NCBI GenBank assembly: GCA_902517455.1
Contig: CABYCN010000006.1
Location: 1 to 46,106, forward strand
Reading direction: 5' to 3'
Origin: an uncultured Pelagibacteraceae bacterium
GTDB lineage: Bacteria; Pseudomonadota; Alphaproteobacteria; Pelagibacterales; Pelagibacteraceae
DNA length: 46,106 bases
Made by a program: the position numbers and the translations under genes. The notes under the pieces are model-generated. The model had not been told where the DNA came from. It ran no database searches and saw only the letters and a program-made list of their open reading frames with translations. Positions 11,689 to 46,106 of this stretch are shown here, piece after piece (position 1 is the first letter of the stretch; each line of letters starts with the position of its first letter).

Positions 11689-12390
11689 ATGAGCATTATT
11701 AGATTATTTTTTTCGGAGACATTATCTGCTGACATGATTGACAAATTAGATAAGTCTCAATCTCATTATTTAACTAAAGTGATGAGAATAAAAGAAAATG
11801 AGGTTTTTTCTTTATTTAATGAAAATGGAGAATGGGAAGCAAAAGTTTTAGGAATATCAAAAAATATTGTTGAATTTAAAACAATTAAACAATTAAGACA
11901 AAAAGAAAATTTTAAAGAATTATGGTTAGCTTTTTCTCCTATTAAATCAAATTTTCAAAACTTTATGATTCAAAAAGCAACAGAGTTAGGTGTTACAAGA
12001 TTTTTACCAATTATTTTTGACAGGACAGTGGTTAGAAAAATAAATAAAGAACGTTTAGAAAAAATTGTAATTGAAGCAAGTGAACAATCAAACCGTATTA
12101 ATGTACCTATAGTTGAAGAGTCTCAAAACTTAAATGATTTCTTAAAAACCACCTCAATTGATTTAATTTTTACAGATTTAAATTCGAATAATAATAAAAT
12201 TGATAAATCTAAGCTTACAGATAAACCAGTTTGCATTATTGTAGGTCCAGAGGGTGATTTTTCAGAAGCTGAAAGACAGAAGATTCTTTCATTTAAAGGT
12301 GTTCAGCCAATAAAGATTAATGAAAATATTTTAAGGTCAGAAACAGCAGTCATATCTGCAATTTCGATCATAAATTATGTGATTAATTGA
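11689..12390 (+). CDS. rsmE: 16S rRNA (uracil1498-N3)-methyltransferase RsmE
   Basis: SPOUT-class methyltransferase that modifies U1498 of 16S rRNA. At 233 residues it has an N-terminal PUA-like segment and a C-terminal trefoil-knot domain. Visible landmarks are QKATELGVTRFLPI, VEASEQSNRINVP, the SAM-binding IIVGPEGDFSEAE, and the knot motif LRSETAVISAIS. The ATG at 11689 is separated from the divergent HAD gene by only 17 bases, so the mRNA is probably leaderless or nearly so. The oxidase operon starts 59 bases downstream. Confidence 0.93.
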   Translation: MSIIRLFFSETLSADMIDKLDKSQSHYLTKVMRIKENEVFSLFNENGEWEAKVLGISKNIVEFKTIKQLRQKENFKELWLAFSPIKSNFQNFMIQKATELGVTRFLPIIFDRTVVRKINKERLEKIVIEASEQSNRINVPIVEESQNLNDFLKTTSIDLIFTDLNSNNNKIDKSKLTDKPVCIIVGPEGDFSEAERQKILSFKGVQPIKINENILRSETAVISAISIINYVIN

Positions 12391-37364: not shown

Positions 37365-39063
37365 ATGTTTGTAAAAAAAATTAAAATCATTTTATTCATA
37401 TTATTAGTCTATCAAAATCCTCTTTATTCTAAAAGTGATAGTTTTGATGACTTTAACTCTAGGAATTTATCAAAATATTTTTCAGGACTTGTCGCTTTTG
37501 AAAACAAGGATAACTCATCTGCATTAAATTTTTTTAATTCCTCTAAAATTCTAATTGATAGGCACGATCCATATTTAAAAAAATACGTTTATTCTTTAGT
37601 TTTAGAGAATAAGATTTCTCAAGCTATAAATGTAATTAAAAGAAATAAAGATAAAAAAAATTCAAATTTTTTTGATGCTCATTTATTGTTAATTCTGGAC
37701 AGTCTTAAAAAAAATAATTTGAATCAGGCTTACATTCATCTAAAAAAAACTCAGAGACTAGCTAAAAAGGATAGATTTAACTCTGCAATATTGGAAAGCT
37801 TAAAACAGTATTTATATGTTTTCCAGGAAAATAAGATTTTAAATGATAAAAAAAATTTCGGTCAACTTTCAATAATTTCAGAAACTTTTCAGAGATGTTA
37901 TCTAAATGATAAAGATACTAGTATCTATTTTTCTAATTTAATTAACAATACTGAGGCTGATTATACCAGATATACCTTTTTTTATTTAAATTATCTGATT
38001 GAGAATAATAAAATTAGTGAAGCTCAAAAAATATCAGGAAATATAAAGTACATTAATAGCACATTATTATTATCCCAAGCTAAAAACTGGATAGAAAGTG
38101 ATGATTTGGAAAAATTTTCTAGTGTCTTTTCTTGTAAAAACTATAACGACGTAATAAGTGAATTCTTATTCCTGATTTCAAATTTGTACTCATCTCAGGA
38201 TAATTTTGAAAAGTCAAATTTTTATTTAAACTTATCTGATTTTCTTAATCCAAAATTCATCTTCAATTTATCTTTAGTGGCAGAGAATTACTATTTTAAT
38301 GGACAGTATAAAAAAACCAAGAAAATCCTAAAAAAACTTTAAAAAGGATAACAATTTTTATTTTTGGTACAGAATTAAAAAGGAAGCACAAATAATTGAT
38401 AAAATAAACAATAAAGATGCGTCTCTAAATTTCATTACGACGGAGTTCAATAAAATTAATCAGCCTAATATTAAGATGTTATTTGATATTGCAAATTTTT
38501 ACAAAAATGCCAAGGAATATAAGAAAGCTATTATGTATTACACTAAAATTATATCTTCGATTAATGACGATAATCAAATTAAATCTGATTTACTTTACCG
38601 GAGGGGAGGTAGTTTTGAAAGATTAGGTGAATATGAAAACGCAGACAAAGATTTACTTCTATCGTTAAAAATAAATCCGCAAGACGCTTATGTTTTAAAT
38701 TATCTTGCTTATTCCTGGCTTGAAAGGGATTATAAAATAAACGAGGCAATTAAAATGCTTGAAAATGCTTATGCTTCAAAAAATAATGACCCTTATATAA
38801 TCGACTCTATTGGTTGGGCTTATTATCTTATTGATGACTATGTTAAGGCTGAGAAATTTCTTAAAAGAGCAGTCGAATTAATGCCTGATGATCCAATAGT
38901 TAACGATCATTACGGAGACATTTTGTGGAAATTAGATAGAAAAATACAAGCAAGATATTTTTGGGAAAATGTTCTTAAAATGGATGATGCTGAAAAAGAA
39001 ATGTTAGAAAAAATTAATATAAAATTAATTGAAGGTCTTGAAAATTTTAAAAATGATATTTAA
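37365..39063 (+). pseudogene. TPR-repeat exported protein, interrupted by a frameshift
   Basis: A tetratricopeptide protein of about 565 residues when the two parts are joined. It has a signal peptide (about 1-22, ending LYS) and many helical TPR-like repeats; the C-terminal half has clear TPRs such as YVLNYLAYSWLERD and IIDSIGWAYYLIDDYVKA. The first frame stops at TAA 38340-38342. The second frame is open from 38332 with no start before 38476. Removing one base from the A7 run at 38330-38336 joins them without a gap (ILKNFKKDNNFYFWYR). So this is a recent mutation, a sequencing error, or slippage on A7. It may be a periplasmic or outer-membrane-associated scaffold. ispE overlaps its end by 11 bases. 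Confidence 0.75.
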
Positions 39064-41757: not shown

Positions 41758-42585
41758 TTATTTCCATTTTGCTATTGGTGGTAATGACATTAATATACCT
41801 TCAACATTTCCACCGGTTTGTAATCCAAATTTAGTACCCCTGTCATACAATAGATTAAACTCTGCGTATCTGCCTCTTTTAATGTATTGCATCTCCTTAT
41901 CTTTAACAGTCCATTTCTTTTTAATTTTTTTTTGAATAATCTTATTAAATATTAATTGAAAAGTTATACCTACATCTCTTACAAATTTAAAATCTTTATC
42001 AAAGTTATCATTTTTATAGTCAAAAAAAATTCCTCCTATACCCCTTTGTTCTTTTCTATGAGGTAAATAAAAGTATTCATCACACCATTTTTTGTATTTT
42101 TTATAATATTTTTTATTATGTCTGTTACACATATTTTTTAAAATCTTATGAATTTTTTTTTTTTCATTGAGATCGATCTTTGAGGGCGTTACATCCATCC
42201 CACCCCCAAACCATTCTCTGGTCGTGCAAATATATCTTGTATTAAAATGCATTGCTGGAATAAATGGATTTTTCATATGCATAACTACTGAAATTCCAGA
42301 TGCCCAGAATCTCGGATCTTTTTGTGCGCCAGGTATGTTTTTTTGAAATTCTTTTGGAAACTTACCATAGACTTTTGAAAAGTTTACGCCAACTTTTTCA
42401 AAAATTTTACCGTTTTGTAATATTCTATACTCACCGCCACCTTCATCTGTTTTAGAATTTCTTGTCCAAGTCTTTGATTTAAAGTTGATTTTATTTTTCT
42501 CAATTTTACAAATATCATTACAAAATGCTTCTTGAAGGGTTTTAAACCAATTACTTGTTAAATCTTTTTTAATTTCTAAGTTCAT
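41758..42585 (-). CDS. hemF: Oxygen-dependent coproporphyrinogen III oxidase
   Basis: Aerobic oxidative decarboxylation of coproporphyrinogen III to protoporphyrinogen IX in heme synthesis, feeding the oxidase encoded in this window. Its 275 residues are near the family's lower range but complete. Conserved segments are SVVMHMKNPFIPAMHFNTRY with the catalytic-site His, WFGGGMDVTPSKID, and the C-terminal RGRYAEFNLLYDRGTKFGLQTGG with the signature Arg residues. It overlaps trmL by four bases (ATGA). The enzyme needs oxygen, in line with an aerobic lifestyle. Confidence 0.96.
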   Translation of the reverse strand: MNLEIKKDLTSNWFKTLQEAFCNDICKIEKNKINFKSKTWTRNSKTDEGGGEYRILQNGKIFEKVGVNFSKVYGKFPKEFQKNIPGAQKDPRFWASGISVVMHMKNPFIPAMHFNTRYICTTREWFGGGMDVTPSKIDLNEKKKIHKILKNMCNRHNKKYYKKYKKWCDEYFYLPHRKEQRGIGGIFFDYKNDNFDKDFKFVRDVGITFQLIFNKIIQKKIKKKWTVKDKEMQYIKRGRYAEFNLLYDRGTKFGLQTGGNVEGILMSLPPIAKWK

Positions 42586-43055
42586 ATCAATTTCATTTGT
42601 TTTAAACTTTCAGCTAATATTATCGCTACAGACGATGCAATATTAAGTGAACGTTTATTAACTTTCATTGGTATTTTTAATCTATCTTTGATTAACTTGT
42701 GAATACTTTCAGGTACCCCAGCACTTTCCCTTCCAAATAAAATTGTATCATTTTCATCAAATTTAAATTTTGTATAAGATATAGATGCTTTAGTAGTCAT
42801 CAATATAATTCTTTGACTTTCTTTATATTTAAAAAAATCATTTGAACTTTTGTAAAATTTGATGTCTTTCTCCTCCATATAATCCATTACAACTCTTTTA
42901 AATCTTTTATCACTTAATAAAAATCCACAGGGCTCTATAATTTCTAATTGTGCTCCTAGACAAGCGCATGTTCTAATTATTGCAGCCGTATTTTGTGGAA
43001 TATCTGGCTCGTAGAGAGCAATTTTTAAACCTCCATTAGAATTAATATTTTTCAT
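42582..43055 (-). CDS. trmL: tRNA (cytidine34/uridine34-2'-O)-methyltransferase
   Basis: SPOUT methyltransferase that 2'-O-methylates the wobble base of certain tRNAs. At 157 residues it has IALYEPDIPQNTAAIIRTCA in the N-terminal half. The knot motifs are ILFGRESAGVPE (SAM binding), IPMKVNKRSLNIASSVAIIL and a short C-terminus. The first ten residues (MKNINSNGGL) are a small extension before the usual start of the fold. It is the first gene of a minus-strand trmL-hemF-greA run and diverges from the TPR-barrel gene over a 50-base gap. Confidence 0.92.
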   Translation of the reverse strand: MKNINSNGGLKIALYEPDIPQNTAAIIRTCACLGAQLEIIEPCGFLLSDKRFKRVVMDYMEEKDIKFYKSSNDFFKYKESQRIILMTTKASISYTKFKFDENDTILFGRESAGVPESIHKLIKDRLKIPMKVNKRSLNIASSVAIILAESLKQMKLI

Positions 43056-43105: not shown

Positions 43106-44983
43106 ATGTCTATTTCTAAAAAAAAGTCCAATCTAAAAAGAAAAAGATATAATCATAAGAGAAAAAAATCTAATCAAAAAAGAGTAAAAACCAATTCTAT
43201 CGGGATATTATTTGCCTTTATTGCCTTCATATCCTTATTTGTAGAGATAACAAAACCTGTTCCAGTATTGTCAGAAGAAGAAAAGCTGATCACTCAAAAT
43301 CAAATTTTAGAAAACCCGAACGATATAAAGTTAAATTATAAGTATGCTAGGCAACAGTTTGCTGCAAAAAATATAGATGAAGGTATTAATACAATAGAAA
43401 AATTAGCTCAAATTTATCCTAATAATATACAGATTAAATTAGACCTCCTCGCAATTTATAAAGAAGCAAATTTAGAGGAGAAGGCTTTAGCAATAATTGA
43501 TGAAATTAAAAAAAATGAAAATACTACAGAAAACAATCTAAAATTCGTTGAGAAATTTGAGTCGACATTTAAGAAAGAAGAAGAGAGCAAAACTCTTCTT
43601 TCCCATATGACAGGTATATTTAAACATCAAGTAAAATCCTCACCTAGTCTTCTTGCTAATATGGAGGAAATTGGCAAAATTTCAGAAAGTATTCTTAAAA
43701 ATAGAAGTATTAAGAATGAATATGTTGCAAAAAAAAATGTGACTTGGAGTCAGATTTTACAAAATCCGAAAGATATGAAGCTTAATTATCAATTTGCAAG
43801 ACAACAATTTAAAGCAGGACATGTAAAAGAGGGCATATCTGCAATAAAGAGAATGAGTAAAATTTATCCAGATAATATTAAGATTAAATTAGATTTACTT
43901 GGTGTTTATAAACAAACCGACATGAAAAAGGAAGCATATGCTTTGATTAAAGAGATAAAGCAAAATCAAAACACAACTGACATACAACTTGATTTTGTAA
44001 AACAAATAGAATCCTCTTTTAATTTTATTCATAGCGAACCAGTAGCACCTCCGGAATGGATGATATCTGCTTTGATATCCTACGGATACAATCAAGACAA
44101 CAACGTTAGCAATGTGACCAAGGACAATAAACAGATCAGTAACAATGAAGTTATTTCTTTCGCAGATCCAAAATTTGACAACACTTCAACCAAAAATATA
44201 GGAGTCACAGCTTTTAAATTCTTTGGGGAAAAATCATCTTTTATGATAAATGCTAATTTAGGTAATTCAGATCAACATCAAGGTACTTCGGGTGATTATG
44301 ATAATTACGGGATGGTTTTTTCGATGGATACGTATTTAGGAGATTTCAATTTTGCTCCATTCTTAATGATGAGTAAATATGAAAATAAATATAGTGCAGA
44401 AATGTTATCAAATCTTGTTGGAATAAATGGATCATTTTTAAAAGGAGAAAAACATAAATTTAGTTATGGATATTCATTGACTGACACCAAGTATAATCAA
44501 AATTCATCTTATGATGCTATTAGAGACTTTAATTCAACAACAGATAGTTTTTCTTTAGGATATAATTTTTATAAAAATGATAAAATCTCTTTTACTACTG
44601 GATTAACTTATGCAGACTCAGATGTACTAGTTGATGCTGGAAATGATTATTCATCTTATGATATAGATTTGAGAGCTAATTTTTCTCTCCCTTGGGCTTA
44701 CTTTTCAATTGGGGAAAGTTTAACTTTTACAGATTACAAAAATGCTGACACTTCTTTAAGTACAAATAAAAGATCTGATACTGTAAATACTGTTGATTTA
44801 TCAATTAGTAAAGCCCTAGGTGACTTTATAACATCGCTTGATCCAAACAAAAACTTAGTTATGAATTTAGCTTTTGAAAGAACATTTTCTGAGTCCAATA
44901 TAATGAATTATGACTATATTTCTGACGCAGTCTCATTTGGACTTTCAAAGTCTTTCGATTTAAGCAAGATGTTTGCAAAATAA
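43106..44983 (+). CDS. TPR plus C-terminal beta-barrel outer-membrane candidate
   Basis: I do not recognise a named family for this 625-residue protein. It starts with about 29 highly basic residues, then one hydrophobic segment (31-48) that is either a long-n-region signal or an anchor. Residues 65-155 and 215-305 are two TPR-like units, about half identical and exactly 150 residues apart. From about 315 to 625 the sequence alternates polar and aromatic strands (ISALISYGYNQDNNVSN, YGMVFSMDTYLGDFNF, AYFSIGESLTFTDY), as in a beta-barrel of 12-14 strands. TPR plus barrel occurs in Slam-type surface lipoprotein modifiers and in polysaccharide exporters such as BcsC. A repetitive exported protein is encoded next. 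Confidence 0.7.
   Translation: MSISKKKSNLKRKRYNHKRKKSNQKRVKTNSIGILFAFIAFISLFVEITKPVPVLSEEEKLITQNQILENPNDIKLNYKYARQQFAAKNIDEGINTIEKLAQIYPNNIQIKLDLLAIYKEANLEEKALAIIDEIKKNENTTENNLKFVEKFESTFKKEEESKTLLSHMTGIFKHQVKSSPSLLANMEEIGKISESILKNRSIKNEYVAKKNVTWSQILQNPKDMKLNYQFARQQFKAGHVKEGISAIKRMSKIYPDNIKIKLDLLGVYKQTDMKKEAYALIKEIKQNQNTTDIQLDFVKQIESSFNFIHSEPVAPPEWMISALISYGYNQDNNVSNVTKDNKQISNNEVISFADPKFDNTSTKNIGVTAFKFFGEKSSFMINANLGNSDQHQGTSGDYDNYGMVFSMDTYLGDFNFAPFLMMSKYENKYSAEMLSNLVGINGSFLKGEKHKFSYGYSLTDTKYNQNSSYDAIRDFNSTTDSFSLGYNFYKNDKISFTTGLTYADSDVLVDAGNDYSSYDIDLRANFSLPWAYFSIGESLTFTDYKNADTSLSTNKRSDTVNTVDLSISKALGDFITSLDPNKNLVMNLAFERTFSESNIMNYDYISDAVSFGLSKSFDLSKMFAK
43298..44020 (+). repeat. Internal duplication in the TPR-barrel gene
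   Basis: Two copies of an about 91-codon unit lie at 43298-43570 and 43748-44020, offset by exactly 450 bases with no gaps between the translated copies. Both read x-QIL-x-NP-x-D-x-KLNY and end near ESxF. About half of the residues are identical and most changes are conservative. The 59-residue spacer between the copies is unrelated, with a possible amphipathic character. Confidence 0.88.
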
Positions 44984-45086
44984 TAGAAAGTTTTTATTTC
45001 AATCAAAGGTTGAAGATATTTCTACGACATTTAAAAATTCAGAAGTATATTTTCATATTAAAGTATGGAATAAGAAAAATACTTTA
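44984..45086 (+). promoter_or_regulatory. Intergenic region before the repetitive exoprotein gene
   Basis: This 103-base gap is long for this window and suggests that the exoprotein has its own promoter. It contains a TAGAAA / TTTCTA inverted repeat near its left half and several A/T-rich -10-like hexamers, but I see no -35/-10 pair that I would defend. No T-run terminator hairpin follows the TPR-barrel gene. No Shine-Dalgarno precedes the ATG at 45087. Confidence 0.25.
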
Positions 45087-46106
45087 ATGAAAAACTTTAT
45101 AATATTTATTTCTAGTTTCATCTTTTTAATCAACACTGATGTTAAAGCATTTGTAATTCCAGCTCTTGAAGCTGATAAAATGATCGATTTTTCAACTTCA
45201 AGTGAAACAAAAGTTGGAGACCAAACAAGTCAATCAATCTCTGTAATAATTGAAACGAACTCAGAGGCGAGTACAGAAGTAGAAACATCAACATCAGTAG
45301 AAATTGATAACTCAAATGTTTCAGCAGAAGCTGGTGCCTCAGTTGGAGCGGATGCAGGAGCAAGTACTGAGATAGGGGGAGTAACTGCCGAAGTAGAGGC
45401 CTCAGTTGGAGCAGAAGCTGGTGCATCAGCAGAAGCAGAGGTAACGGACACAGCAGTAGTCGCTGAAGGAAGTGTAGGTGCCTCAGTTAGTGCAGAAGCA
45501 TCAATAGGAGTTTCAGGAAATTTAGACGGTAATACAGAGGGAAGTGCAACTGGTGGAGTTTCAGCAACAGCCGGAGTTGGAGCAGAAGCATCGGGATTTG
45601 TAGGATACAACGATGATCAAGTTGGTGCTGAGGGAGGCGCCTCAGCCTACGCAGGTGCCGCAGTGGAAGCTACCGGTGAAGCTGGTGTTGAAGGAGCATA
45701 TGGAGGAGCCTCTACAAGCGCAGGAGTTTCTGCAGGTACATCAGTTGGTGGTGAAGTAGGCGGAGGAGCTTCTGTTGGAACTGATGGAACATTATCAGCT
45801 TCTGTAGACATAGGCGCAAGACTAGGGTTAGGTGCTGAAGTAAGTTTAGATCTTGAAATTGATACATTCGCTATTGCAAAAGACGTTTATGCTGCAAAAC
45901 CATCAGATGAGGCAAAAGCTGTTAAAAGTGTAATTGATGATCAAGCAAAACTTGTTAGTTCTAACGTCAATGTTAATAATGTTAAGGGATTAGCAAAAGA
46001 GGCATCTGCCAAAGCTCAAAGACAAACAGAAATCGCAACCCAGACGGCAAAGGAAGCTCAATTAAAAGCTGAAAGAATAGCAAAAAAAACTGCAGCAGCA
46101 GCTGAA
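45087..46106 (+). CDS. Secreted Ala/Gly/Ser/Val/Glu-rich repetitive protein (3' end outside window)
   Basis: An open frame of 340 codons without a stop up to the window edge. It begins with a Sec signal peptide (hydrophobic 4-16, likely cut after VKA at 21). Residues about 55-260 are low complexity: short irregular repeats such as ASVGAEAGAS, GGASAYAGA and GVSAGTSVGGEVGGG, with almost no bulky or basic residues and regular Glu/Asp. After about 275 the sequence changes to a lysine-containing Ala/Gln-rich helix (AKEASAKAQRQTEIA), probably coiled coil. I recognise no family. A fibrous, adhesin-like or amyloid-like surface protein is plausible. The gene is richer in G and C than its surroundings. 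It may be a client of the TPR-barrel protein upstream. Confidence 0.75.
   Translation, partial: MKNFIIFISSFIFLINTDVKAFVIPALEADKMIDFSTSSETKVGDQTSQSISVIIETNSEASTEVETSTSVEIDNSNVSAEAGASVGADAGASTEIGGVTAEVEASVGAEAGASAEAEVTDTAVVAEGSVGASVSAEASIGVSGNLDGNTEGSATGGVSATAGVGAEASGFVGYNDDQVGAEGGASAYAGAAVEATGEAGVEGAYGGASTSAGVSAGTSVGGEVGGGASVGTDGTLSASVDIGARLGLGAEVSLDLEIDTFAIAKDVYAAKPSDEAKAVKSVIDDQAKLVSSNVNVNNVKGLAKEASAKAQRQTEIATQTAKEAQLKAERIAKKTAAAAE
45336..45503 (+). repeat. Short imperfect repeats in the exoprotein gene
   Basis: Near-identical 27-base units begin GCCTCAGTTGGAGC at 45336 and 45399, and a diverged copy begins GCCTCAGTTAGTGC at 45480. All are in the same frame and encode ASVGA(D/E)AGA-type peptides. 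Spacings of 63 and 81 bases are multiples of three, so the array can expand or contract without breaking the frame. Confidence 0.7.

Follow-up and report, generated by a model that had tools for sequence, protein, structure and literature searches.

At the right-hand end of a 46,106-nucleotide stretch of DNA from an uncultured Pelagibacteraceae bacterium (the window, which is the entire contig C6 of a 745-kb assembly that is 65.7% complete) lie two adjacent forward-strand genes, one for a predicted outer-membrane barrel protein and one for a repetitive exported protein. Here, we find using profile comparisons, structure prediction, locus comparisons and a tree of the barrels that this two-gene unit is real and conserved, that the barrel gene is usually paired in SAR11 with a gene for a FecR-domain protein, and that the repetitive protein is a replacement partner confined, among the loci compared, to one SAR11 clade.

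The first gene (43106–44983) encodes 625 residues. Judged by eye from the translation and from relatives, its N-terminal segment (43106–43273) comprises about 30 very basic residues and then a hydrophobic stretch, which may be a long signal peptide or an anchor. Two similar tetratricopeptide repeat (TPR) modules follow, at residues 64–136 (43295–43513) and 214–304 (43745–44017), and Pfam recognizes TPR_19 (36.8 bits) and TPR_20 (26.1 bits) in the protein, with a cut-off of 25 for each. Most aligned relatives have one module: module 2 is common to all 25, and module 1 is missing from most of those paired with FecR. The alignment holds 25 of 29 SAR11 sequences (the window, L019–L030 and L033–L048, from which two fragments and two near-copies were left out), and AlphaFold2 run on it places both TPR blocks and 14 long strands, forming a barrel between residues 319 and 618 (44060–44959), at a mean predicted local distance difference test score (pLDDT) of 77.6 and a predicted template modelling score of 0.48. 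The best matches in structure comparison are CymA (Z 23.2 over 268 residues, 2.7 Å) and OmpG (Z 22.2 over 261 residues, 3.0 Å), both of which we take to be 14-strand pores. No Slam structure is among the listed matches from Foldseek and structure comparison, which is uninformative either way, and a sequence search of the PDB with the SAR11 profile returned TPR-region matches only (E ≥ 0.088). The gene product is thus predicted to be an outer-membrane protein with a TPR arm and a 14-strand barrel. A preliminary description, made from the letters of this DNA alone, had proposed a signal or membrane segment, TPR units and a strand-rich C-terminus that might close into a barrel, and the Pfam matches, the N-terminus as read by eye and the AlphaFold2 model bear out that layout.

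The second gene is listed from a TTG codon at 44973, which is unlikely to be the start because near relatives begin at the ATG corresponding to 45087; this ATG, about 104 bp past the stop codon of the barrel gene, is most likely the true start. From there, the gene (45087–46106) encodes a signal peptide of 21 residues (45087–45149; by eye, with its boundary at INTDVKA/F), a region rich in Ala, Gly, Ser, Val and Glu (45150–45899; in the relative L036, strands are predicted here with low confidence only) and the start of an Ala/Lys/Glu helical region (45900–46106) that carries an 11-residue repeat in complete relatives. As the window ends with the contig, it holds 340 codons of this gene and lacks those for the C-terminus.

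How general is this arrangement? In SAR11, 99 barrel open reading frames reduce to 90 non-redundant ones at 98%, and their same-strand downstream neighbour is a FecR-domain exported protein in 79, an Ala/Gly/Ser-rich protein (a class defined by composition: more than 50% A, G, S, V and E and more than 200 residues) in six, a contig end in five and anything else in none. A protein gene therefore follows the barrel in 85 of the 85 non-redundant loci with downstream sequence, at an offset of −35 to 167 bp (median 100). These counts leave out L031 and L032, which are order-level matches to the TPR part only, and L161, from genome G243, yielded no barrel. With Pfam's own FecR model, 73 of the 81 above-cut-off domains in 300 genomes of the genus lie at most 700 bp after a same-strand barrel; the other eight include that of G016, which sits at a contig start and is not judgeable. 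Counted per genome, after removal of the weak G243 barrel match (leaving 72 of 73) and of three FecR matches that fell short of the cut-off, 63 genomes have barrel and FecR, nine the barrel only and five FecR only. Four of the nine belong to the clade with the repetitive partner (G000, G171, G179 and G290), four have the barrel cut by a contig end (G133, G151, G214 and G295), and in the remaining one, G009, the FecR gene is cut after 98 codons. FecR domains also occur in long open frames (725–1838 residues) in G001, G085, G176, G198 and G263, genomes without a barrel match.

The pairing extends beyond SAR11. Of 385 alphaproteobacterial genomes searched with the 25-sequence SAR11 profile, 52 encode TPR-barrel proteins, and among 27 class loci, drawn from the 49 genomes outside the window's own family with a match, FecR lies downstream in 16; the other 11 may include misses because most flanks were 1.5 kb. 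The adjacency of the barrel gene and an exported-protein gene thus exceeds chance and is not an accident of one genome. The preliminary description had proposed to look for such co-occurrence of neighbours in related genomes, and had named the lack of a predicted barrel, or adjacency in this genome alone with independent occurrence elsewhere, as grounds for giving up its proposal; since a barrel is predicted and the adjacency is conserved, neither came true. Among the titles and abstracts listed by a literature search, in which most subscription journals were not covered, none deals with this pairing. In pelagiphages, FecR has been described beside curli secretion genes (PMC9599517, partial text).

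The complete FecR partners vary widely in charge: 40 of 63 are 26–38% Lys with a net charge of +78 to +166 (for example L048 7390–8874 and L045 7386–8633), and the remainder range from neutral to acidic, with −131 as the lowest value. Further on, many SAR11 loci hold a CHASE2 gene, with a SpoIIE part seen in L048, and in L045, L047, L095, L103 and others CHASE2 genes flank the pair on both sides.

A tree of 84 SAR11 barrels and seven outgroup rows places the six barrels with Ala/Gly/Ser-rich partners in one clade (100% SH-aLRT), and the sister and outer branches are FecR-paired barrels. One such clade amid FecR-paired barrels implies a single change of partner. The tree holds 84 of the 90 clusters (six shorter than 380 residues were dropped) and was made with a quick method without a mixture model; its long outgroup branches were flagged. 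The window's second gene has no Pfam FecR match and reaches at best 5.6 bits with the SAR11 FecR profile; we rejected the idea of a FecR remnant in these proteins, as that best score (E 0.0095 in a ten-sequence set) is not credible. The signal-bearing, low-complexity protein that the preliminary description suggested as a client is present, but the usual partner is FecR and the repetitive protein is its replacement in one clade.

The complete relatives reveal what such a fibre looks like. Copies in L036 (743 residues) and L037 (744 residues if counted from the likely ATG, 750 with the start as listed) run from the signal peptide through the Ala/Gly/Ser/Val/Glu region (net charge −30) and the helical repeat region (+68) to a Peptidase_S74 domain, which scores 26.6 and 26.3 bits, respectively, over a Pfam cut-off of 22. 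In the helical region, identity at a lag of 11 residues is 0.60 against an expected 0.26, and 95% of shuffle maxima fall below 0.335. The AlphaFold model of the L036 fibre is of low confidence (pLDDT 46.4) and was for that reason kept out of the fold search. In genome G171, whose barrel contig shares its length and scores with L034 (97.9% to the window), one contig (L130) ends within the fibre repeat and another (L091) opens with an S74 end, after which come petA, cytochrome b and cytochrome c1 (named by eye). In all three S74 ends (L036, L037 and L091), a Ser and a Lys are separated by five positions (SDIRLK, SDVRLK). The S578/K583 dyad of MYRF, which has been equated with that of phage endosialidases, has this same spacing (PMC3742443, partial text). 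The fibre thus resembles phage tailspikes and endosialidases in its C-terminal chaperone domain (Peptidase_S74, ICA), and differs from them in that the domain here ends a bacterial exported protein encoded beside an outer-membrane barrel and not a virion protein. Of the papers listed by literature searches that did not cover most subscription journals, none describes a bacterial fibre with a phage-type chaperone end encoded next to a barrel of this kind.

Where might this end have come from? In viral contigs, 188 stretches matched it, of which 164 encode a relative and 80 were kept, at 57–70% identity; no barrel was found in these 80 loci, and the strict motif S[DE]xRLKxNI occurs in an open reading frame of at least 60 residues in 11 of the 80. 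Among annotated phages, 15 records match, all below 60%. A phage origin of the S74 end is the natural reading, though not proven. In two viral loci (L271 763–3222 and L287 778–3222), an S74-like end that is 60–62% identical to that of the fibre closes a protein of 814–819 residues, which by eye has a likeness to a baseplate hub.

The domain is rarely seen: the Pfam model found it in none of 61 relatives, the L036 end used as query found it in two of 300 genomes, and the window's fibre sequence used as query in the 61 genomes returned only itself, although more distant relatives may be masked by its low complexity. In 20 of the 85 partner genes, every copy is truncated by a contig end; because assemblies break inside such low-complexity genes, partner C-termini are lost and some S74 ends must be hidden. 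The copy in the window is presumed to end in an S74 domain as well.

In L036 (10038–11279) and L037 (8647–9897), a gene resembling ligand-gated ion channels lies 20 bp past the fibre gene (NCBIfam LGIC_1, E 4.1e-10 in L036, below cut-off). We rejected it as a third member of the unit, since it follows the fibre in these two loci but does not stand between the S74 end and the cytochrome bc1 genes in L091. Its homologue in the window's genome is at the end of contig C3 (L050), after a TRAP transporter-like gene (by eye). About 1.8 kb past the channel-like gene, L037 holds the start of a strongly repetitive exported protein (11697–12311; FNDINGDGSGFD repeats).

The barrel protein shares with Slam and other type 11 proteins (SlipAM, DUF560, PF04575) an N-terminal TPR arm, a 14-strand barrel and an exported-protein gene close by, and the likeness extends to homology at profile level across TPR and barrel. 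The whole SAR11 profile matches seven SlipAM proteins (7 of 14 SlipAM loci) at E 8.9e-14, and the barrel alone does so at 96.7% (E 4.6e-10); as a control for likeness to any 14-strand barrel, the SAR11 barrel scored 5.4% against 14 FadL proteins and less than 1% against reversed rows. An intermediate alignment of 28 alphaproteobacterial rows (all but one of the 27 class loci, together with L202 and L205, both brought in through the SlipAM search) matches the SAR11 profile at E 2.4e-39, and 11 of its 28 members match PF04575 and eight TPR_Slam (E ≤ 0.001). R556 and D558 are invariant and align with an RxD stretch of the SlipAM proteins; this stretch and a SNIxNYxY stretch close to the barrel C-terminus align across both families. 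At the level of sequence profiles, the barrel thus appears homologous to the SlipAM domain beyond its likeness to other 14-strand barrels, and we call it a divergent SlipAM relative. Because it falls below the Pfam cut-off and its partners are not of the known cargo type, we stop short of assigning it to the canonical type 11 proteins. Of the Slam- or BcsC-type layout named in the preliminary description, kinship with Slam stands at profile level, with negative controls, and BcsC does not (22.2 bits against a cut-off of 858).

Type 11 proteins carry Sec-exported cargo across the outer membrane, cluster 1 cargo has a C-terminal eight-stranded barrel, and DUF1194 genes lie close to the marine cluster 3, where the cargo is unsettled (PMC8406197, PMC12282271; partial texts). 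Cargo has been verified experimentally for just seven type 11 outer-membrane proteins, all in one of ten clusters, and TbpB-like and DUF1194 neighbours are named (PMC12282271, partial text); the available main text of that paper does not mention CHASE2, SAR11 or S74, and FecR is not among the terms counted in it. The partners described here are FecR-domain or S74-fibre proteins, and they differ from known cargo in lacking a C-terminal eight-stranded barrel visible to Pfam.

We therefore lean, without great assurance, toward a divergent exporter or surface anchor of the SlipAM/type 11 kind that acts on the product of the gene directly downstream. The periplasmic TPR arm would receive the Sec-exported partner, and the 14-strand barrel would pass it to the cell surface or hold it there. 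This partner would be a FecR-domain protein in most SAR11 relatives and in many other Alphaproteobacteria, replaced once by the fibre in the window's clade, where the S74 domain would bring about trimerization and, like that of phage tailspikes, could release itself by cleavage. Transport, surface location, trimerization and self-cleavage are all inferred, with export the most likely function; an exporter or anchor with a changeable client would be expected to leave such a trace, constant pairing with one exported gene and a single exchange for an exported protein of unrelated kind.

Several observations weigh against this exporter-or-anchor reading. The window protein has no PF04575 match in Pfam at E up to 1 (nor was any found in its genome, 65.7% complete), and the 25 Pfam families listed, of 36, for the 25 SAR11 members do not include SlipAM; some of these members match other barrel models (OMP_b-brl in five, Autotransporter in three and DUF2860 in one, at 6.1e-8). 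SlipAM itself matches FadL at 74.9% (E 2.6e-5, 125 columns), and the intermediate set does so at 83.7% (E 8e-6, 91 columns); since both match FadL, general barrel likeness accounts for part of the scores. In four complete partners (L036, L037, L048 and L030), Pfam, at the sequence level only, detects no C-terminal eight-stranded barrel, but S74 or FecR plus a weak Apolipoprotein match in L037. The FecR profile behind the neighbour count was built from these same loci, whereas the 73 of 81 rests on Pfam's own model. Only two complete genes and one detached end document the S74 domain, and neither S74 nor petA was found in the incomplete genome of the window. Finally, adjacency by itself does not show transport, and the CHASE2–SpoIIE genes beside the FecR pair in many loci are compatible with signalling too.

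Indeed, the TPR barrel and FecR might sense at the outer membrane and report to a CHASE2–SpoIIE phosphatase, with nothing exported. In L048, the gene after FecR carries both CHASE2 (184 bits) and SpoIIE (106.9 bits), many loci have CHASE2 genes flanking the pair on at least one side, and in Burkholderia an operon described as regulating biofilms consists of a LysM-FecR gene and, after it, a gene for a CHASE2 kinase (PMC5192318, partial text). The likeness to that operon is that FecR and CHASE2 proteins are encoded together; here, however, FecR comes after a barrel gene, L048 has SpoIIE in place of a kinase in its CHASE2 protein, and no CHASE2 gene was seen in the fibre-clade loci compared. That clade retains the barrel and an exported protein, and although only L036 and L037 (the same as L090) have at least 6 kb downstream, a signalling unit would be expected to retain CHASE2, so its lack in both loci long enough weighs against signalling, as does the SlipAM-like character of the barrel. 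We regard signalling as unlikely, yet as the most credible of the alternatives.

Could the fibre instead stay inside, as a periplasmic or envelope-spanning scaffold whose long cationic helix binds the barrel from within, in the manner of a TolA-type spacer? The 11-residue Ala/Lys/Glu repeat would suit such a role, and the helix may resemble TolA. The C-terminal S74 domain, elsewhere a feature of phage tailspikes and MYRF (PMC3742443, partial text), and its relatives in viral contigs argue against a scaffold, which we consider improbable. An exopolysaccharide outlet of the BcsC, PgaA or PelB kind has the same TPR plus barrel layout, the first Foldseek match of the model is BcsC (9b8a, E 3.1e-11, but with a TM score of only 0.27), and PelB aligns at Z 16.5. 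The barrel differs from these proteins in its predicted strand number of 14, in NCBIfam scores far below cut-off (22.2 and 14.9 bits against 858 and 366.65) and in its protein partner, which is encoded downstream in every non-redundant locus with downstream sequence; moreover, a Pfam scan of seven proteins from the window detects no polysaccharide synthase. We rejected the assignment to BcsC or PgaA on the scores and the strand number, and hold such an outlet to be very improbable.

To the left, the pair is bordered by two reverse-strand genes identified by Pfam and locus comparison, a divergent trmL-like SpoU methylase gene (42582–43055) and the coproporphyrinogen oxidase gene hemF (41758–42585). 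The pair adjoins trmL–hemF in the window, in L033–L036 and in L130, and in L036 the bc1 genes then follow. In the L037 and L038 loci trmL and hemF were not seen, so that the pair there lies elsewhere or further off. A promoter scan scored below the shuffle mean, and the single terminator-like site is on the opposite strand, inside a gene. Further upstream in the window, two TPR open reading frames (37365–38342 and 38476–39063) correspond to one continuous frame in L036; the split arose either in the cell or in the assembly.

Two points are new here: the pairing of the barrel gene with FecR, and its one-time change to a fibre partner that ends in S74. More broadly, and tentatively, it is possible, if still doubtful, that a SlipAM-type exporter lineage across Alphaproteobacteria uses FecR cargo and that one SAR11 clade switched to a fibre with a marine-phage chaperone end. 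If this is true, client recognition would be independent of the eight-stranded barrel known from type 11 cargo, and surface fibres that process themselves in phage style would be made by some of the smallest free-living cells. Those FecR partners that are strongly cationic might hold anions such as phosphate close to the cell; SAR11 has been reported to keep an extracellular phosphate buffer (PMC4525184, partial text), a paper that supports no link to CHASE2. The near-fixed barrel–FecR pairing and its single swap thereby name definite proteins to test as cargo in the alphaproteobacterial branch to which SAR11 belongs, and suggest the fibre and FecR partners as candidates within a group of exporters for which few cargo proteins have been established.

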